Below the pieces are notes generated by a model. The model was not told the origin of the DNA. It saw only the letters and a program-made list of their open reading frames with translations, and searched no databases. Shown here one piece after another: positions 4,203 through 27,854 of a stretch of 28,935 nucleotides of DNA. The position numbers and the translations under genes were made by a program. Source of the stretch: a virus. The stretch lies in the IMG/VR virus record IMGVR_UViG_3300026077_000017, positions 1 to 28,935 of that record; one strand, given 5' to 3'. Within the stretch, counting starts at the first letter, position 1; each line of letters opens with the position of its first letter.

Positions 4203-5813
4203 ATGTCACAACTGTTTGGTTATTCAATTGAACGTAAAAAGAAGGGTCTTAAATCAGTAGGCCCTTCTTTTGTTACGAAAGATACGGATGATGCAGCACA
4301 ACCCATTGTGGCAGGTGGTTACTTTGGTCAATACGTTGACCTCGGTGACGCTGCCAACAAAGCAAGTGATGTGGATCTTATCGGTAGATACCGTGAGATG
4401 TCATTACATCCAGAGGTAGACCAAGCAATTGGAGATATCGTCAATGAAGCCATCGCTGGTGATCTAGATGATCACCCAGTAGATGTAGAGCTCTCAAACC
4501 TAAGGGTTTCTGAGTCTGTAAAGAAAAGAATTAGAGAAGAATTTAATAACGTTTTAAGTTTATTAAATTTTGATCAGAAAGCATATGATATCTTCCGTAG
4601 GTGGTACATCGACGGAAGACTTTTTTATCATAAGATGATCAACCCTGATAATCCTGCTGAAGGATTGACGGAGTTAAGGTATATTGATCCTAGAAAGATT
4701 AAAAAGGTTATCGAATATGATAAACCTAAGGATAGATTATCACCTGCTGATCCAGAAGTTAACACACTAGTACCTAAGAGTGTAGAGTATTTCATTTATT
4801 CACCTAAAGGACTACGTGGGTATGAGAATAGAGGATTAAAAATAGCACCTGATGCAGTATGTTTTGTCCACTCTGGACAATTAGATATGCAGCGTAACTA
4901 TGTGCTATCACATCTACATAAAGCTATTAAGGCAACTAACCAGTTGAGAATGATTGAAGATTCACTGGTTATTTACCGCATGTCTCGTGCACCAGAGCGT
5001 AGAATATTCTATATAGATGTAGGTAATTTACCTAAGCAGAAAGCAGAGCAGTACCTTAAAGAGGTAATGTCTCGCTATAGAAACAAGTTAGTATATAATG
5101 CTGACACAGGAGAGATAAGAGATGACAAGAAGTTCATGTCAATGCTCGAAGACTTCTGGTTACCAAGAAGGGAAGGCGGTAGAGGAACTGAAATCTCTAC
5201 GCTCCCAGGTGGACAGAATCTTGGAGAACTTGAGGACATCAAATACTTCCAGAAGAAACTCTACCGTGCATTAAATGTACCTGAGTCACGTCTGGAATCT
5301 GATAGTTCATTTAACGTGGGTAGGTCTGCTGAGATCACACGTGATGAAGTAAAATTCCAGAAGTTCATCGCAAGACTCCGCAAGAAATTCTCTGACTTAT
5401 TCAACGATCTTCTTAAGACACAATTGGTACTCAAGGGTGTAGTAACTTTAGAAGAATGGGATGAATATAAGGAGCATATCCAGTATGATTTCGTTGCTGA
5501 CAACTACTTCAGTGAGTTGAAAGAGCAAGAGATTATGAATGAGCGTATGGCTCTAGTCGCTCAAATGGATCCTTTTGCTGGTAAATATTTCTCACTTGAA
5601 TACATGCGTCGTCAGATATTACGTCAGACAGATGAAGAGTTTAATGAGATACAAGAGCAGATGGACACTGAGATCCAAGAGGGTAAACTTGTAGATCCTG
5701 TAGAGATGCAGAAGTTAGAAGTTGCTCAAATGGAGATGTCTTTGATGCCTCCTGAGCCAGATCCTGCGGAAGCAGGTATTAGTCCTGCGGACTATAAAAA
5801 AGGAGATATCTAA
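4203..5813 (+). CDS. 20: Portal vertex protein gp20
   Basis: This is the portal subunit, a dodecameric ring at one vertex of the head that initiates prohead assembly and forms the DNA channel; the packaging motor docks on it. Its length, 536 aa, matches T4 gp20 (524). Recognisable segments include WYIDGRLFYHKM (residues 134-145) and LRYIDPRKIKKV (158-169), typical of T4-type portals, plus a long charged helical C-terminal region. It lies between gp19 and the core/protease genes, as in T4. A short AAGGACAG ribosome site precedes the ATG. The stop TAA is again embedded in a late promoter. No frame disruption is seen. Confidence 0.95.
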   Translation: MSQLFGYSIERKKKGLKSVGPSFVTKDTDDAAQPIVAGGYFGQYVDLGDAANKASDVDLIGRYREMSLHPEVDQAIGDIVNEAIAGDLDDHPVDVELSNLRVSESVKKRIREEFNNVLSLLNFDQKAYDIFRRWYIDGRLFYHKMINPDNPAEGLTELRYIDPRKIKKVIEYDKPKDRLSPADPEVNTLVPKSVEYFIYSPKGLRGYENRGLKIAPDAVCFVHSGQLDMQRNYVLSHLHKAIKATNQLRMIEDSLVIYRMSRAPERRIFYIDVGNLPKQKAEQYLKEVMSRYRNKLVYNADTGEIRDDKKFMSMLEDFWLPRREGGRGTEISTLPGGQNLGELEDIKYFQKKLYRALNVPESRLESDSSFNVGRSAEITRDEVKFQKFIARLRKKFSDLFNDLLKTQLVLKGVVTLEEWDEYKEHIQYDFVADNYFSELKEQEIMNERMALVAQMDPFAGKYFSLEYMRRQILRQTDEEFNEIQEQMDTEIQEGKLVDPVEMQKLEVAQMEMSLMPPEPDPAEAGISPADYKKGDI

Positions 5814-5816
5814 ATA
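5810..5816 (+). promoter_or_regulatory. Late promoter (CTAAATA) after gp20, overlapping gp20 stop
   Basis: CTAAATAG covers the gp20 stop (TAA at 5811-5813), 22 bases before the core-protein ATG. It has the same stop-codon fusion as at the gp19/gp20 junction. Confidence 0.5.
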
Positions 5817-5837
5817 GTTTTATATTAATGAATCATT

Positions 5838-6104
5838 ATGCCTACTGAAGTAGCAAGAGATATCGTAAACGCACTGTTTGCGGGTAAGAAAGATCTCTCA
5901 GATTATGTTGTCCAAGGTTTGAATGCGAAAGCAGTCGATGCCATTGATGCACATAAGCAAGAGGTTGGAAAACATATGTTCAAACCACAGGAAGACGGTC
6001 CTGAAAACACCGAGCAACCTGAGGATGCAGCACCTGAAGCTTCAGCTGAAACTGAAAACGAAACCGAGGTAACTAAAGATGAAACTGATCAGGGAGGAGA
6101 TTGA
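5838..6104 (+). CDS. 67: Prohead core protein, gp67-like
   Basis: This 88-aa protein sits between portal and protease, the slot held by gp67 and gp68 in T4. The first 50 residues are amphipathic and helical (PTEVARDIVNALFAGKKD). The rest is a very acidic Glu/Asp/Pro/Ala-rich tail. Small size and an acidic tail are expected of a scaffold core component that is degraded by the gp21 protease during maturation. Only one gene occupies the slot, so a separate gp68 is missing or replaced. Sequence similarity alone is weak; the call rests on position, size and composition. Its 3' end overlaps gp21 by 26 bases. Confidence 0.65.
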   Translation: MPTEVARDIVNALFAGKKDLSDYVVQGLNAKAVDAIDAHKQEVGKHMFKPQEDGPENTEQPEDAAPEASAETENETEVTKDETDQGGD

Positions 6105-10519: not shown

Positions 10520-11143
10520 ATGACAGTTAGTTATGAGGAACATCCTGCGTTCCCTGTGAGATTCTTTAAGTTTCGTGCTTCAAAAGAATTAACTTCTACT
10601 ACACTAGCGGAAGTAAAAAAATTACAATTCACCAAACGGAATGAACCTGATGGTGTCGGAACAAGTGGTGCTATACAGAATAGAAAGGAGTTTCTTCCTA
10701 TTCATAAGTGGTTTCAAGACTGTATTGATTCCATTCATAAGAATGAGAGGTGGCACACTGATAGATTAGTAGTTAATAAGTCTTGGGCTAATAGATCTGA
10801 TGCTAACACAGGAGATAGTCATGGATATCATCGTCATCCTATGTCATATCTTAGTGGTGTATTCTATCTTACTAAAGGAGCACCCACTGTATTTCTAGAT
10901 CCTGTAAAGGATAGAGACTGGGGTCAATTTCATCTTGATGGATACCCTGATAAGGATTGTAAACTGTTTACTCACCTAGGTGTAGGTGGTTTGATAGTGT
11001 TTCCTAGTTATGTTATCCACGGATCGGATTCAAACTATGATGTGGATAGGTTTACCATTGCATTCAATACATTTCCTCAAGGAGAATTTGGTGGACATTA
11101 TGGGTGTGATGTAACAGTTAATGATTGTGGTGATTATCTATGA
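10520..11143 (+). CDS. 2OG-Fe(II) oxygenase family protein (paralogue A)
   Basis: This 207-aa protein has the core of the putative 2OG-Fe(II) oxygenase family PF13759: YHRHPMSYLSGVFYL, then APTVFLDP, then GGLIVFPSYVIHGSD and RFTIAFNTFP. Likely iron ligands are His in HRH (residues 104-106) and the distal His167; Arg177 is the likely 2-oxoglutarate anchor. Such enzymes couple 2-oxoglutarate decarboxylation to hydroxylation; the substrate is unknown. It abuts the preceding stop with no gap and overlaps uvsY by four bases, so it belongs to the recombination operon. It closely resembles the tandem pair at 23104 and 23763, with RHPMS identical in all three. Confidence 0.8.
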   Translation: MTVSYEEHPAFPVRFFKFRASKELTSTTLAEVKKLQFTKRNEPDGVGTSGAIQNRKEFLPIHKWFQDCIDSIHKNERWHTDRLVVNKSWANRSDANTGDSHGYHRHPMSYLSGVFYLTKGAPTVFLDPVKDRDWGQFHLDGYPDKDCKLFTHLGVGGLIVFPSYVIHGSDSNYDVDRFTIAFNTFPQGEFGGHYGCDVTVNDCGDYL

Positions 11144-11583
11144 ATTTAGAAAAGATTGAGGAGATGTGGGCAAAGGATGCAGAGAAATTCTTTGATCACA
11201 GGGACTTACCTGAGTTGCTTGCCAACGATAGTATGGAAACTCCCAAACTACATGCAAAGTATTTGCAATTATATAATGAATTTAAACTTATGCTCTCCGA
11301 TGCGGAGAAAAAGTATAAGCAGTTGTATAAAGAGAAGTGGTTATATTACAATGGGAAAGCACCTGCCTCTGTCTACGCAGAGAAACCCTTTGATCTTAAG
11401 GTACTAAAGGGTGATCTTGATATGTTCATCGATAGTGATGAGGATGTATGCCGTGCCAAGCAGAAAAAAGACTACCTTGAAACTTGTATAAATTCTATTG
11501 ATAGGATACTTAAGCAGATCCACAATAGAGGGTTTGACATTAAGAACACTATCGAAATTGTAAAGTATTATGGGATTCGATGA
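11140..11583 (+). CDS. uvsY: UvsY recombination mediator
   Basis: This is the mediator that loads the UvsX recombinase on single-stranded DNA covered by gp32. At 147 aa it is near T4 UvsY (137). The C-terminal pattern INSIDRILKQIHNRGFDIKN matches the family's AIKSRGFAIK-type ending, the middle has the KxxKWLYYNGKA segment comparable to ARLDYYSG in T4, and the whole chain is helical and charged. It lies immediately before uvsW, its neighbour in T4, with a four-base overlap on both sides (ATGA). UvsX itself is not in the window. The identification rests on motif, size and synteny. Confidence 0.82.
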   Translation: MNLEKIEEMWAKDAEKFFDHRDLPELLANDSMETPKLHAKYLQLYNEFKLMLSDAEKKYKQLYKEKWLYYNGKAPASVYAEKPFDLKVLKGDLDMFIDSDEDVCRAKQKKDYLETCINSIDRILKQIHNRGFDIKNTIEIVKYYGIR

Positions 11584-20987: not shown

Positions 20988-21302
20988 ATGAAATACAGAG
21001 AAGACGATACGATCAAGGTGGTGCAGGATTATATCTCCAGCACCTACCGATCTCACTACTCTAACGAAGAGAAGGGGGTCCAGACTCTAGACCTCCTTGA
21101 GGCGATAGGATCAGCAGAGCACTTCTGTCAATCTAATATCATCAAGTATGCATCTCGCTACAAGAAAAAGAGTCAGCATAAGAGTGACGTGCTAAAAATC
21201 ATTCACTATGCTATACTATTATACTATTTCTCAGGCACGTCGTATCCTGATGATAAAGAAGTCCCACCCCCAACACCAGCAGAATTTATAGACTATGACT
21301 GA
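20988..21302 (+). CDS. DUF3310-like protein
   Basis: This 104-aa protein has the signature LDLLEAIGSAEHFCQSNIIK, YASRYKKKSQHKSDVLKIIH, YAILLYY, which follows the DUF3310 pattern (LEAIG-F-x-x-GNxxKYxxRxxxK-DxxKAxxYL). These phage proteins have been described as nucleotide-kinase-related, but no P-loop is present here, so enzymatic function is unproven. It ends in a Pro-rich tail and overlaps the clamp gene by eight bases. A strong sigma-70-type promoter ends seven bases before its ATG, implying a near-leaderless message or that the gene is translated poorly while the clamp is the main product. Confidence 0.65.
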   Translation: MKYREDDTIKVVQDYISSTYRSHYSNEEKGVQTLDLLEAIGSAEHFCQSNIIKYASRYKKKSQHKSDVLKIIHYAILLYYFSGTSYPDDKEVPPPTPAEFIDYD

Positions 21303-22029
21303 ACCAAAAGATTGGAAGACGAATCTACAATTATCTAAGTATTCAGTTGATACACTGCGTAACTTCAGTACTATCAACAAAAGTATCCTTATCAGACCAG
21401 GCAAGTTTATTGAAACTATGTCGGTTAATAAGAATATCATCGCTCAGTCTCAGATAAAAGAGTTTATCCCTGAGCAGATGGCGATCTATGATCTACCATT
21501 ATTCTTAGGAGCACTGTCTCTGTTTAAGGATCCTTGGTTATTCTTCCCTGATGATAAGAAGGTCATCATATATGATGAGACTACTAAGGGTAAGACAACC
21601 TTCTACTACAGTGACCCTAGTGTTATTGTAACCCCACCTGATTTTAATCCTGACATACCTGAGATTGAAGTCATGTTTGATCTACCTCAGGCAGATCTTA
21701 CTCAACTACTACAGGCAGCGAAGGTGTATGGTGTAGAGGACTTGTGTGTTAATGGGTTTAGAGGTGAGTATAGTATATGTGTTAAGGATAAGAAGAATAC
21801 TACTTCTAATGTATTCTCATTACCATTGAAGAAGGTTATCTTCCAAGATCCTTTAGGTAAGGAGAGAGGTGGTGGTGCTAACCCTGATTTCTGTTACTGC
21901 TTTAAGGTAGAGAATCTTAAGTTGGTTGATGCATCGTATCACATTGCACTTAGCAAGAAGAACATTGCTAACTTCACATCATTATCACATAATGATTTGA
22001 ATTACTTCATTGCTTTGGAGCCTAACTAA
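21295..22029 (+). CDS. 45: Sliding clamp gp45
   Basis: This is the DNA polymerase processivity clamp, a trimeric ring; in T4 it is also the mobile enhancer for late transcription. At 244 aa it is near T4 gp45 (228). The N-terminus LSKYSVDTLRNFSTINKSIL, then IRPGKFIETMSVNKNIIAQS, then MAIYDLPLFLGALSLF, is typical of T4-type clamps. It is followed by the loader gene with a one-base overlap (TAATG), as in the T4 order 45-44-62-regA. The eight-base overlap with the DUF3310-like gene implies coupled translation. Confidence 0.94.
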   Translation: MTEPKDWKTNLQLSKYSVDTLRNFSTINKSILIRPGKFIETMSVNKNIIAQSQIKEFIPEQMAIYDLPLFLGALSLFKDPWLFFPDDKKVIIYDETTKGKTTFYYSDPSVIVTPPDFNPDIPEIEVMFDLPQADLTQLLQAAKVYGVEDLCVNGFRGEYSICVKDKKNTTSNVFSLPLKKVIFQDPLGKERGGGANPDFCYCFKVENLKLVDASYHIALSKKNIANFTSLSHNDLNYFIALEPN

Positions 22030-22961
22030 TGTTTCTATGGGTTGAAAAGTATCGACCACATACTATTGAAGAATGTATCTTACCTGAGGATACCAAAGCT
22101 ATATTTCAGGGATTCTTAGAGCAAGGGGAAATACCAAACCTCTTGCTCTCTGGCTCTGCGGGTGTAGGTAAAACCACAGTTGCTAAGGCACTGTGTGATG
22201 AGTTGGGGGTTGATTCTTATGTCATTAATGGGTCTGATGAGGGTAGATTCCTGGACACTGTACGCAATCAGGCAAAGACCTTTGCTAGTACTGTTTCTCT
22301 TACATCTCAGTCTCGTCACAAGGTTATCATTGTTGATGAAGCAGACAATACTACTGCTGATGTCCAACTTCTCCTCAGGGCAGCGATTGAAGAGTTTCAA
22401 GGGAACTGCAGGTTCATCTTCACCTGTAATTATAAAAATAAAATTATTGCACCACTCCACTCACGATGCTCCGTAGTAGATTTCAATGGTAAGGTTAATA
22501 AGAAGCAGTTAGCAGAAGCATTTTTCAATAGGGTTAAGGTAATCCTTGAGATGGAGATGGTTAAGTATGAAGAGAAGGTCGTAGCAGAAGTAGTAATGAA
22601 GTACTTCCCTGACTTTCGTAGGACTCTTAACGAATTGCAGAGGTATTCTTCTTGTGGAAAGATTGATACAGGTATATTATCCTCAGGTAATGAGTTTAGT
22701 ATTGAGAAGTTGGTTGGTTATCTTAGGAAGAAAGAGTTTACCAACATGAAGAAGTGGGTAACACAGAATATGGACAGTGAACCTCAGGATATAATGAGGA
22801 AGGTGTATGACAACCTATATAATTATTTTGACTCCAAGTCAATACCAGAGGCAGTTTTGATCATCTCAGAGTATCAATATAAGTCCTCGTTTGTTGTCGA
22901 TCAAGAGATAAATATGGTTGCTTTTATGACAGAGTTAATGATGCGATGCGAGTACACCTAA
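22029..22961 (+). CDS. 44: Clamp loader large subunit gp44
   Basis: This AAA+ ATPase forms, with gp62, the loader that opens gp45 and places it at primer ends. At 310 aa it is close to T4 gp44 (319). It begins LWVEKYRPHTIEECILPED as loaders do. Walker A GSAGVGKT lies at residues 42-49, Walker B VIIVDEAD at 99-106, sensor 1 region FTCNYKNKI at 131-139, and the SRC arginine-finger motif at 145-147. The C-terminal collar region is intact. In T4 the small subunit gene 62 follows directly; here about 2.3 kb of accessory genes are inserted between them. Confidence 0.96.
   Translation: MFLWVEKYRPHTIEECILPEDTKAIFQGFLEQGEIPNLLLSGSAGVGKTTVAKALCDELGVDSYVINGSDEGRFLDTVRNQAKTFASTVSLTSQSRHKVIIVDEADNTTADVQLLLRAAIEEFQGNCRFIFTCNYKNKIIAPLHSRCSVVDFNGKVNKKQLAEAFFNRVKVILEMEMVKYEEKVVAEVVMKYFPDFRRTLNELQRYSSCGKIDTGILSSGNEFSIEKLVGYLRKKEFTNMKKWVTQNMDSEPQDIMRKVYDNLYNYFDSKSIPEAVLIISEYQYKSSFVVDQEINMVAFMTELMMRCEYT
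22907..22914 (+). promoter_or_regulatory. Possible late promoter (GATAAATA) inside gp44 end
   Basis: GATAAATA, identical to the element before gp18, lies 47 bases before the 48-aa ORF that opens the oxygenase/methylase insertion. It is within coding sequence, so chance occurrence is possible in this AT-rich DNA. If used, it would let the inserted genes be expressed late, apart from the early clamp operon. Confidence 0.3.
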
Positions 22962-23107
22962 TGGATGAGTCTAGAGTTAATGATCTATGGGAAGATATGG
23001 ATAGACTCAATGCTCTGTATGAGGAATTGATGTGGCCAGAAGATATACACCTAGAATTTAAAGCAGACTACGAGAATAATCGTATTATAATTCAACCTAT
23101 GAAATGA
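22961..23107 (+). CDS. Small acidic protein of 48 aa
   Basis: This short ORF starts MDESRVNDLWEDMDRLNALY and ends YENNRIIIQPMK. It is linked to both neighbours by overlaps: TAATG with gp44 and ATGA with the next oxygenase. It fills the only gap between them, which supports translation. The acidic front half looks helical, the back half beta-like. No family recognised. It is the first gene of the insertion that separates gp44 from gp62. Confidence 0.6.
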   Translation: MDESRVNDLWEDMDRLNALYEELMWPEDIHLEFKADYENNRIIIQPMK

Positions 23108-23766
23108 GACAGAAATACTCTACTGTGAATATGTTTCCTATCAGGTGCTTCTCATTCAAAGCACCTAAGGATTTGACTGAGAGCACCTTAGAGAAGGTAA
23201 ACCAACTAGAATACCGATGTTATAATGGTGACGGTGGGGTTGGCACCAGTCTAGACATACATAAGAATCCAGATTTCTACGACCTCCATGAATGGTTTCA
23301 GAGGTGCGTAGATTCTTTGCATGTGGACAATGGCTGGAATTGTGATAGAATAGTAGTTAATAAATCTTGGGTCAATAGATCTGATGCTGAGACTGGTCAT
23401 CACCACACACCTCATAGACATCCTATGTCATGGTTGAGTGGGATATATTATCTCACTGAAGGTGCACCCACTATATTTGTTGATCCATTATCACAAAGGG
23501 AGTGGGCACAGTTTCATGTTGATGGTGGTCCTATAACTGATGCAACACAATATATCCATCCAAAAGCAGGTGGGTTATTTGTATTCCCTAGTTATATGAT
23601 TCATTCAACTGACCCTAACTTTGACCTATGTAATAGATTCTCTATCGCATTTAATACATTCCCTAGTGGAGCACTTAATTTCGGTGGTTGGGATCAAGCA
23701 ATGGCAAAGGTACAGGTTGAAGGATGGGCAGATTTAGGTCCATTAAATTTAAGTGATTACTCATGA
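23104..23766 (+). CDS. 2OG-Fe(II) oxygenase family protein (paralogue B)
   Basis: This 220-aa protein is a close relative of the 10520 protein over its whole length: RIVVNKSWVNRSDAETGHH, HRHPMSWLSGIYYL, APTIFVDP, GGLFVFPSYMIHSTD and RFSIAFNTFP line up in order. Likely iron ligands: HRH at residues 104-106 and His167; Arg178 probably holds 2-oxoglutarate. The substrate is unknown. It overlaps the 48-aa ORF and the next oxygenase by four bases each, so the three are co-translated. The tandem arrangement next to an adenine methylase suggests acting on nucleic acid, but protein or small-molecule substrates are equally open. Confidence 0.8.
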   Translation: MRQKYSTVNMFPIRCFSFKAPKDLTESTLEKVNQLEYRCYNGDGGVGTSLDIHKNPDFYDLHEWFQRCVDSLHVDNGWNCDRIVVNKSWVNRSDAETGHHHTPHRHPMSWLSGIYYLTEGAPTIFVDPLSQREWAQFHVDGGPITDATQYIHPKAGGLFVFPSYMIHSTDPNFDLCNRFSIAFNTFPSGALNFGGWDQAMAKVQVEGWADLGPLNLSDYS

Positions 23767-24410
23767 CGGCATATCCAGGCATAGAAAGACATCTATTCCC
23801 AATTAAAATCAGGGAGTACCATAAACCTGAGGATGATTTGAATGATAAGCTTATAGAATTCTTTAAGACTTATCCTCAGCAACCTTCTAATCTTCCAGAG
23901 GGTGTGTTGACTAGTAGACCTGATTTGCATAAGTGTGACAACGAACATGTTAAGAAATTACATGGTTGGTTTTATGCATGCTTAGAGGAATACTATAATG
24001 AGTATCAGTTATACTGTGATGGATTAGAGATATCTCTATCATGGTTTAATCATGCACCAGCAGGGTCTGGTGTGGGACATCCCTTACATAGACACCCTAT
24101 GTCATATGTGAGTGCTGTATACTATCTTACAGAGGGTGCACCAACAGCCTTTGAAGACCCTGTTACACCTAGAGTATATGATACACTAGATGTATTCCAA
24201 CACAGTGCTATGGTAAATGAGTGGGGTATCAATGAGACCATCACTCCAGAGCCAGGCAAATTAATCATATTCCCTGCGTGGTTGAGACACTACTCAGACA
24301 GACAACTTGACAACTTTGATCGATGGACTATGAGTTTCAATGCATTTCCAGTCGGTAAAGTCAATGTCGGTCCATGGGACATGCCACAATTAGAGGTAAA
24401 ATTATTATGA
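23763..24410 (+). CDS. 2OG-Fe(II) oxygenase family protein (paralogue C)
   Basis: This 215-aa protein is a more diverged member of the same family: LHRHPMSYVSAVYYLTEGAP, FEDPVTPR, KLIIFPAWLRHYSD and RWTMSFNAFPVGK. Candidate ligands: HRH at residues 109-111, His176; candidate 2-oxoglutarate Arg187. The N-terminal 90 residues differ from paralogues A and B, so substrate choice may differ. It is encoded in tandem with paralogue B and overlaps the Dam methylase start by four bases (ATGA at 24407). Codon use and base composition look like those of the neighbours, so there is no sign of very recent import. Confidence 0.78.
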   Translation: MTAYPGIERHLFPIKIREYHKPEDDLNDKLIEFFKTYPQQPSNLPEGVLTSRPDLHKCDNEHVKKLHGWFYACLEEYYNEYQLYCDGLEISLSWFNHAPAGSGVGHPLHRHPMSYVSAVYYLTEGAPTAFEDPVTPRVYDTLDVFQHSAMVNEWGINETITPEPGKLIIFPAWLRHYSDRQLDNFDRWTMSFNAFPVGKVNVGPWDMPQLEVKLL

Positions 24411-25246
24411 AAAAGTTTAGAAAGACACCACTCCGTTATCCAGGTGGTAAATCAAGGGTAGCAAAGGATTTTATCCCAAGATTCCCTCAGTGTAAGGAGT
24501 ATCGTGAACCTTTTGTAGGTGGTGGTAGTGTGGCACTGTTGTTTAGTCAGAGGTATCCTGACATCCCTGTGTGGATTAATGACAAGTATACTTATCTCTA
24601 TAATTTCTGGGTACAACTCCAGAAGAGAGGAGATGAATTGTCTGACACGCTAGTTAAGACCAAGGAAGATCATAGCACCGAGGACAAGGCCAAAGAATTA
24701 TTTAAAGAGTCAAAGGATAAGATAAAGAAAGAAGAAGATGACTTCCAAAGAGCAGTATTATTCTGGATACTTAACAAGTGTTCCTACTCAGGACTGACAG
24801 AGAATAGTTCCTTCAGTGCCACAGCATCTAGACAAAACTTTACTACTCGTGGTGCGACATATCTTAAAGAGATCTCAGGTATCATTCAATCTTGGAGGAT
24901 AACTAACCTAGATTATTCCGACGTTATGAAGGCACCTGGTACAGATGTATTCCTATTCTTGGATCCACCATATAAGATAGGCACCTACCTCTATGGTAGT
25001 AATGCTGAGTTGCATAAGAGTTTCAAGCATGAGGAATTTATTGCAGAGTGTGAACGGTGTACACATGATTGGTTTGTGACGTATAATGTAGATCAGGAAC
25101 TCAAGGATGCATACAAAAACTTCCACCAAGAAGAGTTTCAAATTACCTATGGCATGAAGCATAGGCCAGACAACAAGCAGAAGAAAGAACTGCTAGTATG
25201 TAACTACGACATTAACAAGTCACCATTGGAAGCAATCTATGCATGA
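24407..25246 (+). CDS. dam: DNA adenine (N6) methyltransferase, Dam family
   Basis: This 279-aa protein transfers a methyl group from S-adenosylmethionine to adenine N6 in DNA, probably at GATC as in T4 Dam, though the site cannot be read from sequence. Motifs: LRYPGGKSR (residues 9-17), the SAM-binding REPFVGGGS (33-41), and catalytic DPPY (186-189). I chose the ATG at 24407, which overlaps the upstream stop and gives the usual MKKFRKTPLRYPGGKS start; an in-frame ATG at 24374 would add 11 residues inside the oxygenase gene. No restriction enzyme is adjacent, so this is an orphan methylase. It likely protects phage DNA or times replication or packaging. Confidence 0.9.
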   Translation: MKKFRKTPLRYPGGKSRVAKDFIPRFPQCKEYREPFVGGGSVALLFSQRYPDIPVWINDKYTYLYNFWVQLQKRGDELSDTLVKTKEDHSTEDKAKELFKESKDKIKKEEDDFQRAVLFWILNKCSYSGLTENSSFSATASRQNFTTRGATYLKEISGIIQSWRITNLDYSDVMKAPGTDVFLFLDPPYKIGTYLYGSNAELHKSFKHEEFIAECERCTHDWFVTYNVDQELKDAYKNFHQEEFQITYGMKHRPDNKQKKELLVCNYDINKSPLEAIYA

Positions 25247-25625
25247 GTATCCGCTAAAGGATTACCTTAACAGTATCAATCTAAAGCAGGGAGATCTCTC
25301 TAAAGACGAGAGAGCAATGAAAAAATACCCTGCTTTCGTTGTGAACAAGTGTCTGTCTTCCTTCATTGACACTGTGATGCATGCTAATGAGATGAATGCT
25401 TCATCGCATATTGATAATGTTCTCCAATACCAGTATTTTATACATAGTGTTAGGAAATCTAAGAGATTTTCTCCTTGGGATAAGAAGTCTAAAGACTGTG
25501 ACCTTGACTTAGTGAAAAGATACTATGGTTATAACACTGAGAAAGCTCGACAAGCAATGAGAATATTGTCTAAGGAGCAACTTGAAGTTATTCGATCTAA
25601 ATTAGATACTGGAGGAAGACAATGA
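25239..25625 (+). CDS. 62: Clamp loader small subunit gp62
   Basis: This is the small, non-ATPase subunit of the gp44/gp62 loader. At 128 aa it is shorter than T4 gp62 (187), as in marine relatives. It starts MHEYPLKDYLNSINLKQ and contains YPAFVVNKCLSSFIDTVMHA and CDLDLVKRYYGYNTEKARQA, recognisable for the family. It overlaps Dam by eight bases and RegA by four. The order gp62-regA is kept from T4; only the link with gp44 is broken by the inserted genes. Confidence 0.88.
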   Translation: MHEYPLKDYLNSINLKQGDLSKDERAMKKYPAFVVNKCLSSFIDTVMHANEMNASSHIDNVLQYQYFIHSVRKSKRFSPWDKKSKDCDLDLVKRYYGYNTEKARQAMRILSKEQLEVIRSKLDTGGRQ

Positions 25626-26041
25626 GTGATGAGATCTCGTGGTCTCAAGACATGATGTTAGAAGTTACTCTTAAGGAACCCGATGACTTTCTCAAAGTGA
25701 GAGAGACATTGACTCGTATAGGTGTAGCATCTCGCAAGGAGCGTAAGCTCTATCAGTCTTGTCACATTCTACATAAACGTGGTAAGTACTACATAGTTCA
25801 CTTCAAAGAACTCTTTGCACTGGACGGTAAGCCTACTAACATCACATCTAATGATGTGCAACGTCGCAATCGTATCGCTAAACTACTGTCAGACTGGGGT
25901 CTGATTGAGATTGTAGGATCAGCAGACGACTTGGCACCTCTTAACCAAATAAAAGTTTTATCCTTTAAAGATAAAGGTGAATGGACACTAGAGTCCAAAT
26001 ATAATATTGGTAAAAAGAAAACACCACAGGAGGTGAGTTAG
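25622..26041 (+). CDS. regA: RegA translational repressor
   Basis: RegA binds around start codons of early messages and blocks their translation, including its own and those of clamp-loader genes in T4. It has 139 aa (T4 RegA 122). Family segments: MMLEVTLKEPDDFLKVRETL, LTRIGVASRKERKLYQSCHI, LHKRGKYYIVHFKELFALDG and RRNRIAKLLSDWGLIEIV. It directly follows gp62, as in T4. A Lys-rich extension is present at the C-terminus. Targets cannot be predicted here because RegA sites are loosely defined AU-rich sequences. Confidence 0.93.
   Translation: MSDEISWSQDMMLEVTLKEPDDFLKVRETLTRIGVASRKERKLYQSCHILHKRGKYYIVHFKELFALDGKPTNITSNDVQRRNRIAKLLSDWGLIEIVGSADDLAPLNQIKVLSFKDKGEWTLESKYNIGKKKTPQEVS
26028..26037 (+). 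promoter_or_regulatory. Very strong Shine-Dalgarno before 26043
   Basis: AGGAGGTGAG matches the anti-Shine-Dalgarno end of 16S rRNA over at least nine bases, five bases before the ATG. It is the best ribosome site in the window and implies high output of the membrane protein that follows. Confidence 0.8.
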
Positions 26042-26479: not shown

Positions 26480-26731
26480 ATGTGTCAAAAAGTAATTAAT
26501 GTCATCGCTATTGCGTCTGGCGTTGTATCTCTTGCCGTTGTTGGCGTTAGTGGTTACGTTTATGTTAACCAAGAATCCATCATAGAGTCAGTTAAAGAGA
26601 AAGCACTGGGATCTATCGGTGGTGCTGCCCTTGGTGGTGCTCTCGGTGGTAGTTTACCAGTACCAGGACTTGCACCTCAAGCTGCACCTGATGCACCTGC
26701 TGCTCTACCTGGACTACCATTTGGTGGCTAA
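26480..26731 (+). CDS. Small membrane-anchored Gly/Pro/Ala-rich protein
   Basis: This 83-aa protein has one N-terminal hydrophobic helix (residues about 5-29, VINVIAIASGVVSLAVVGVS), then a charged turn, a Gly/Ala/Leu-rich GxxxG-like stretch (GSIGGAALGGALGGSL) and an Ala/Pro-rich end (APQAAPDAPAALPGLPFGG). The GxxxG-type pattern can drive helix packing in membranes. It follows the two-helix protein after five bases, and its stop overlaps the next start by one base. No known family; a joint membrane role with its neighbour is possible. The ribosome site is weak, so coupling to the upstream gene is likely. Confidence 0.65.
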   Translation: MCQKVINVIAIASGVVSLAVVGVSGYVYVNQESIIESVKEKALGSIGGAALGGALGGSLPVPGLAPQAAPDAPAALPGLPFGG

Positions 26732-27243
26732 TGCATCACAAATTATATAAATCTCAGGTTGTCCTAGACAATCAGAGAGTGATGATTAACATATTAAATA
26801 ATGCTATCCCTCTCTTAGAGGGGGAAGATACAACTTGGACATACCACAGATATAATATCTTTGGATTAACCTCCCCAACTCGTGTGTTCTATGAACTATA
26901 CAATGAGTTGAGGGGGTTTTGTTATGAGTATACAGGTGCTGATCAATTATGGATGCAGTCATGGGTCAACTACCACATGCCTGATAAAGTTTTAACAAGA
27001 CATAACCATACTTGGCCCGTACATGGATACATATCTATAAGACCCCATAAAACTAAGACAGTCTTTGATGGGTTTGAAATAGATAATGAAATAGGTAATG
27101 TTTATATTGGTCCAGGTCTTTTACATCACCATGTAGAGGTACTAGAGGACTATGATACACCTCGGATAACAATAGGATTTGATCTACTGACAGATCCAAC
27201 AAGTTTATCTGGAAATATTGGATTGATACCTTTCCCGAAATAA
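26731..27243 (+). CDS. Probable diverged 2OG-Fe(II) oxygenase-like protein (D)
   Basis: This 170-aa protein has a double-stranded beta-helix look: RHNHTWPVHGYISIRPH, then KTVFDGFEIDNEIGNVYIGP, then GLLHHHVEV and TPRITIGFDL. Candidate metal ligands are the His residues at 91-93 or 98 and the His cluster at 132-134; Arg145 could bind 2-oxoglutarate. The motif order matches the oxygenases elsewhere in the window, but spacing is tighter and the HRHPMS box is absent. It could instead be a cupin-type binding protein. It joins the genes before and after by one-base overlaps (TAATG). Confidence 0.55.
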   Translation: MHHKLYKSQVVLDNQRVMINILNNAIPLLEGEDTTWTYHRYNIFGLTSPTRVFYELYNELRGFCYEYTGADQLWMQSWVNYHMPDKVLTRHNHTWPVHGYISIRPHKTKTVFDGFEIDNEIGNVYIGPGLLHHHVEVLEDYDTPRITIGFDLLTDPTSLSGNIGLIPFPK

Positions 27244-27854
27244 TGTTTAAGAAATTAAAGACACCAGACACTGAAGAGTTTAAAGAGCTGAAGGGTCTTA
27301 TACTCTCACCTATGTTTTCTTGGCATGTAAATGACCAAGCAACTGCCTTCTTGGATCCTACTAAAGGATACTCTGATCTATGGTTTTATTCTCATTCATT
27401 CTTGCATGGACCTAACCATCCAGACAATCCAAGACCTGATCATAATAAATACCCTAAAGTGAACTCAAACTACATGGACTTAATGGACATTGTAGTTGAC
27501 CAGATATTTGAATTGAATAGAGTGAGGTGTCATTGCATCTATAGGATCAATGCTAACTCAGTATACCCCCAGATGAAGGGTGGTATATTAACTCAACCCC
27601 ACGTGGATCATCAGTTTCCACATAAGAATCTATTAGTATACCTAACAGATGCTGGTGGTGATACAATATGCTTTGATGATGACGGTAAGAAACATCATTA
27701 CACACCTAGTGAGGATGATATAGTAGAGTTTCAAGGATTGCATTGTATGCAACCTCCTCCAGACAAGAGAAGAGTAGTCATAGTTATGACTTACCTTGAT
27801 GCTGAGCTAGAACCATACCGCACTAAGTGGAATACAGATCAGTGGAGAGACTAA
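27243..27854 (+). CDS. 2OG-Fe(II) oxygenase, prolyl-4-hydroxylase-like (E)
   Basis: This 203-aa protein has the standard facial triad: HVD at residues 120-122 in LTQPHVDHQFPHKNLLVYL, distal His167 in FQGLHCMQPP, and Arg176 or Arg177 for 2-oxoglutarate in DKRRVVIVMTYLD. The central strand VYLTDAGGDTICFDDDGKKH fits the P4H-like group. Cyanomyoviruses are known to carry such enzymes; their phage substrate is not settled. This one differs from the HRHPMS group (A, B, C) in keeping the Asp of HxD. It is encoded in tandem with D, with one-base overlaps on both sides. Confidence 0.82.
   Translation: MFKKLKTPDTEEFKELKGLILSPMFSWHVNDQATAFLDPTKGYSDLWFYSHSFLHGPNHPDNPRPDHNKYPKVNSNYMDLMDIVVDQIFELNRVRCHCIYRINANSVYPQMKGGILTQPHVDHQFPHKNLLVYLTDAGGDTICFDDDGKKHHYTPSEDDIVEFQGLHCMQPPPDKRRVVIVMTYLDAELEPYRTKWNTDQWRD

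Follow-up and report, generated by a model that had tools for sequence, protein, structure and literature searches.

The gp44-gp62 interval considered here lies in a 28,935-base virus contig of a T4-like cyanophage (IMGVR_UViG_3300026077_000017; the whole stretch is referred to below as the window). The window carries, in order, T4-like structural genes, uvsY, uvsW, a denV-like glycosylase gene and the operon gp45-gp44-gp62-regA. This order of the T4-like replication operon is kept, and it is broken between gp44 and gp62 only by cargo. On the plus strand, the sliding clamp gene gp45 (21295..22029; PF09116, E=7e-10; phrog_223, E=6e-68) overlaps by 1 base with gp44, which encodes the clamp-loader large subunit (22029..22961; PF00004 and PF21328 Gp44_lid; phrog_168, E=8e-128) and forms the upstream border of the slot. 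On the same strand follow a 48-amino-acid (aa) open reading frame (ORF) of the DUF7191 family (22961..23107; PF23821, E=2e-24), two 2-oxoglutarate (2OG)-Fe(II) oxygenase genes of family PF13759 (oxygenase 1, 23104..23766, E=1e-17; oxygenase 2, 23763..24410, E=7e-14) and a predicted, Dam-like D12-class N6-adenine DNA methyltransferase gene (24407..25246; PF02086, E=4e-31; phrog_56, E=2e-83). The clamp-loader small subunit gene gp62 (25239..25625; PF16790, E=1e-16; phrog_225, E=2e-48) forms the downstream border, and the next operon gene encodes the translational repressor RegA (25622..26041, plus strand; PF01818, E=7e-48). The four-gene cassette that the first-pass annotation had described from the letters alone is therefore borne out by profile matches, and its gene identities (two PF13759 oxygenases, a PF02086 methylase, gp44 and gp62) are right at the family level.

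The same annotation had all of these genes joined by 4-8 base overlaps. From gp44 to gp62 the junctions overlap by 1, 4, 4, 4 and 8 bases, the last being that of the methylase gene with gp62; the description holds for the last four and fails for the gp44/48-aa ORF junction, where a single base is shared (TAATG). For the methylase the likeliest start is 24407, where the homologues begin too, rather than the longer ORF start at 24374. Compared with the closest relative, L009, the ratios of nonsynonymous to synonymous substitution are 0.14 for DUF7191, 0.09 for oxygenase 1, 0.11 for oxygenase 2 and 0.07 for the methylase, and because these ratios are low throughout, all four genes are real and under purifying selection. 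In L009 itself DUF7191 and oxygenase 1 are separated by an additional PD-(D/E)XK-like ORF (5372-5869; weak Pfam match).

Between fixed borders, the contents of the slot vary among isolate phages (P-TIM40, S-WAM1, P-RSM6, S-SZBM1, S-H38, P-SSM2, S-SM2, S-SCSM2R and others). P-TIM40 (NC_028663) has gp44, a 47-aa ORF, two PF13759 oxygenases, a Dam-like methylase, gp62 and regA in the order of the window, from which it differs in having pcyA added between methylase and gp62; its methylase and methylase-proximal oxygenase are 57% and 49% identical to those of the window. The first-pass guess that other cyanomyoviruses share the arrangement was thus correct. The bilin reductase gene pcyA occupies the same position in the P-TIM40-like loci L103, L104 and L004, so the slot also takes metabolic genes. 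S-WAM1, P-RSM6, S-SZBM1 and S-H38 likewise have oxygenase and methylase between gp44 and gp62, but with a single oxygenase and no DUF7191 recorded at the slot. In ten other isolates examined the slot contains the methylase and no PF13759 oxygenase, which is the arrangement of the Dam-only Kyanoviridae (S-RIM8, S-RIM2, S-MbCM100, S-CAM1, P-SSM2 and others). S-CRM01, ACG-2014f and S-CAM9 have no methylase in the slot, and in Vibrio phage K471 gp44 and gp62 are directly adjacent. In the DruA-domain phages S-CAM9, S-SM2, S-SCSM2R and S-PRM1 the slot again holds one large cargo gene adjoining gp62, but it encodes a DruA-like protein (PF14236, phrog_19197) instead of a methylase. The arrangement is already known from public isolate genomes, and the cassette of the window is ordinary variation at the cyanophage replication locus.

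For a wider comparison, IMG/VR was searched first with gp62, methylase and oxygenase as queries and then with three distant gp44 sequences, a choice that involves no selection for cargo; most of the loci collected are metagenome fragments. With duplicates removed, the scored set comprised 258 intervals in which both borders are present. Methylase and oxygenase occur together in 88 of them, which is no abundance estimate since the first three queries favour relatives of the window; 103 have the methylase only, one has an oxygenase only and 66 have neither. Among the 139 intervals found with the gp44 queries alone the corresponding numbers are 2, 74, 1 and 62. Comparison of the interval across cyanomyoviruses, which the first-pass annotation had suggested, recovers the full set in P-TIM40 and also shows that the methylase often stands without an oxygenase (103 of 191 methylase intervals).

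Many methylase-free intervals encode a DruA-domain protein (PF14236, phrog_19197) that is ~350-385 aa long. Scored for these two occupants, the 258 intervals divide into 191 with the methylase, 49 with the DruA-like gene (L225 3201-4352 and 48 others) and 18 with neither, so that 240 have one of the two; none has both, where 36 would be expected under independence. A Fisher test on these counts ignores relatedness. On the gp44 tree, a FastTree phylogeny of a gene adjoining the slot, there are ~12 supported independent exchanges between Dam and DruA, all opposite (sign test p ~0.001). The pattern is the same beyond the interval: 16 large records divide into nine with the DruA-like gene and seven with the methylase, without overlap, and among 22 complete isolate genomes 16 have a close Dam homologue, four have the DruA-like gene and none has both (S-SCSM2R has one distant D12 match, E=6e-23). 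Both genes often abut or overlap gp62. Other slot cargo, namely pcyA, ferrochelatase, PurS, nrdC, denV-like, PyrE-like and HNH genes, coexists freely with the methylase, unlike the DruA-like gene. DruA-like proteins have been noted in six Synechococcus phages (Phold paper, PMC12774648); in the literature searched we found no report of their slot location or of the Dam/DruA exclusion. One record annotates such a protein as 'methylcarbamoylase mom', and we rejected a relationship to Mu Mom because profile comparison gave a probability of 0.2%, which, coming from a shallow profile, is itself weak evidence.

By profile the methylase falls in the D12 class, scoring 109 bits against the curated PF02086 cut-off of 22. 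It shares with E. coli Dam the D12-class fold motifs, the N-terminal LxxxGGK (here LRYPGGK) and DPPY, and in the alignment of homologues REPFxGGxS and DPPY are invariant. It differs in falling below the curated Dam models (TIGR00571, 97.9 bits against 114.85; NF008152, 46.6 against 441). E. coli Dam contacts GATC through K9, N120 and R124; the aligned residues of the window methylase are R, S and E. With recognition residues replaced and Dam cut-offs missed, GATC specificity is unsupported, and 'Dam' should be read here as a family label only. GATC shows no depletion, with 155 sites in the window where 165 are expected; this fits protection and proves nothing. No cognate endonuclease of the kind that a restriction-modification system would have lies beside the methylase in the slot of the window. 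The best structural relative is PDB entry 7m6b, on which our literature search found no paper.

The two oxygenases are 34% identical to each other and score 64 and 52 bits against the PF13759 cut-off of 27. Sequence alignment shows HRH, DP, H and R as conserved in them, and no HxD at the usual place. Their AlphaFold2 models are confident (predicted local distance difference test scores of 92.9 and 92.6), and the best PDB fold matches of both, 3bvc and 2rg4, which are also the top sequence matches of oxygenase 1, are bacterial proteins that are themselves uncharacterised and only ~20% identical. Next come HygX, SnoN, GriE and prolyl hydroxylases, including PHD2 and an EF-Tu-modifying enzyme. 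Profile searches returned PF13759 and a sub-threshold cupin match, with no match to AlkB or TET/JBP, and the 50 top-ranking folds for either model include no enzyme that we recognised as acting on nucleic acid bases (AlkB, TET-type). These matches lower, without excluding, the likelihood that the oxygenases act on DNA; hydroxylation of a protein or small molecule is more likely than oxidation of methyladenine.

PF13759 is by no means confined to the slot. Of the 22 complete isolate genomes, 19 have between 2 and 14 PF13759 matches; S-CAM9, S-SM2, HTVC008M and S-SCSM2R are among these 19, all four without a slot methylase. The window has a further PF13759 gene on the plus strand (10520..11143) that overlaps uvsY (11140-11583) by 4 bases and adjoins no methylase, and it serves as a control against a Dam-specific function; it resembles the uvsY-adjacent oxygenase reported in Syn9, where 2OG oxygenases lie beside both uvsX and uvsY (PMC2984593). 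S-SCSM1 encodes 24 2OG oxygenases, ten of them PF13759 (PMC9602691), and a 2010 comparison counted a 2OG-Fe(II) oxygenase and an N6A-methylase among the genes shared by 14 of 16 cyanophages (PMC3037559). Two oxygenase-like genes lie downstream of regA in the window (26731-27243 and 27243-27854). For the second the match is phrog_274 (DNA endonuclease V), a label that looks wrong because the slot gene L272 970-1536, a homologue, is matched by phrog_274 and also, weakly, by the 2OG-Fe(II) family PF13640.

Within the slot, the position classes of the oxygenases are largely orthologous, the methylase-adjacent gene (the lineage of oxygenase 2) belonging mostly to one group and the second gene, the optional slot member represented by oxygenase 1, to another. 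In the first survey, oxygenase presence changes twice each on the gp44 and methylase trees, and oxygenase copy number changes ~15 times. In the wider survey there are three supported independent oxygenase differences on the gp44 tree, too few for a significant sign test. Over the trees of both surveys, oxygenase presence changes only ~2-5 times. Co-occurrence of oxygenase and methylase therefore amounts to about one to three gains, and as far as can be shown the two are not an evolved pair. One genome scan for cellular relatives of oxygenase 2 gave only two phage-like contigs and a short fragment. Two genome-collection contigs with cyanophage clamp-loader regions, L232 (NZ_RMVE01000006, Nonlabens xiamenensis; close to P-TIM40) and L231 (TMED129 metagenome-assembled genome), appear to be phage sequence wrongly placed in a bacterium and in an archaeal assembly, respectively. 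As to the 48-aa ORF, DUF7191 is present in 328 phage records and lies far from gp62 in several of those listed; we reject it as a dedicated part of the cassette and regard it as a cyanophage-wide small protein that is not tied to the gp44-gp62 locus.

Restriction-site counts bear on how the DNA may be treated. In the window CCGG, CGCG and GCGC are all absent, where 13.0, 7.6 and 12.8 sites are expected (Poisson probabilities 2e-6, 5e-4 and 3e-6), and the pooled methylase+oxygenase loci have four CCGG against 547 expected. Since a phage whose sites were all shielded by hypermodification would have little reason to avoid them, this counts, indirectly, against hypermodification of that kind. In 44 matched pairs of loci GGCC is scarce in Dam loci (90 observed, 232 expected), whereas the DruA loci have 310 such sites against 299 expected (p=3e-5); we dropped a causal link between Dam and GGCC avoidance because neither the window (13 observed, 13.8 expected) nor its nearest relatives (ratio 1.09), many of them with Dam, avoid GGCC.

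The reading that we think probable is that the gp44-gp62 gap of T4-like cyanophages is a cargo slot in the replication operon whose usual occupant is a predicted DNA-modifying enzyme and in which the oxygenases are passengers. Within gp45-gp44-slot-gp62-regA the slot holds a D12-class adenine methylase here, and in other phages a DruA-domain protein. Since the reading frames overlap, the methylase would be on the same message as clamp and clamp loader and probably co-translated with them, and would consequently be present while phage DNA is copied. The link between translation of the cassette and the replisome subunits, which the first-pass annotation had stated outright, we likewise infer from the overlapping frames, and it is plausible that an adenine methylase is made together with the replisome. 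The methylase is predicted most likely to modify the N6 of adenine in a short target, and this methylation may protect the DNA from a host or phage nuclease. The two PF13759 oxygenases and DUF7191 would have joined a slot that already held the methylase.

Several observations weigh against this reading. The methylase lacks key residues with which E. coli Dam reads GATC, DruA, a domain of the Druantia defence system, has been classed only as a defence-system domain, and the literature that we found reports no enzymatic activity for any cassette protein. The ACG-2014f methylase lies ~13 kb away from the slot, and by a crude count an ORF overlaps the gp62 start in 148 of the 258 intervals, so tight coupling is not universal. 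Local recombination near gp44 could inflate the exchange counts, and the Dam/DruA exclusion could come from allelic exchange through recombination in the flanking genes and not from a shared function. The gap might on this account be a general site of insertion that has no functional theme, Dam and DruA alternating as a by-product of recombination between allelic modules. The variety of the other cargo speaks for such a spot, which we nevertheless consider rather unlikely, given that DruA never accompanies Dam in 258 intervals or 22 genomes while other cargo does so freely, and that nearly every interval has one of the two. Another reading, a conserved site for interchangeable DNA-modifying enzymes in which methylase and DruA exclude each other because they are functionally equivalent, we hold to be doubtful.

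What the oxygenases do is a separate matter. In the model of the first-pass annotation, Dam would methylate the N6 of adenine at the fork, and either the methylated base or some other base would then be oxidised by one of the oxygenases or by both, giving hypermodified DNA that resists restriction. The adjacency of the genes with their 4-base overlaps, the constant place of oxygenase 2-type genes beside Dam and the fact that only one of 89 oxygenase-bearing intervals is without Dam speak for this model. However, co-occurrence that goes back to so few gains weakens the argument for oxidised methyladenine from gene neighbourhood, Dam frequently does without an oxygenase, the folds resemble those of other hydroxylases, and avoidance of CCGG, CGCG and GCGC would be needless for fully protected DNA. 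The annotation had itself held that oxygenases widespread without Dam and active on proteins or small molecules would speak against it, and as regards distribution the four isolate genomes with PF13759 and no slot methylase are of this kind; we consider the model very improbable. Hydroxylation of a protein of the replisome, the ribosome or the translation machinery (a translation factor) during infection, in the manner of the bacterial prolyl hydroxylase that acts on EF-Tu, has a modest chance of being right: the fold matches include PHD2 and Pseudomonas prolyl 4-hydroxylase, also in complex with EF-Tu, and PF13759 genes lie beside core replication and recombination genes (uvsY; gp44/gp62), but small-molecule enzymes match as well or better, and up to 14 copies per genome suggest diverse substrates. 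That multiplicity, together with HygX, SnoN and GriE among the top fold matches, agrees with action on metabolites or with consumption of 2-oxoglutarate to tune host nitrogen signalling, as has been proposed for cyanophage 2OG oxygenases generally (PMC3037559); this alternative leaves the conserved place beside replication genes unexplained and seems to us unlikely.

Should the doubtful equivalence of methylase and DruA nonetheless prove true, DruA would be a DNA-modifying or modification-reading domain, and the phage version a counter-restriction tool made together with the replisome. The either/or pattern in these abundant ocean phages is a lead that can be tested, both on what DruA does and on the way in which the phages treat their DNA.

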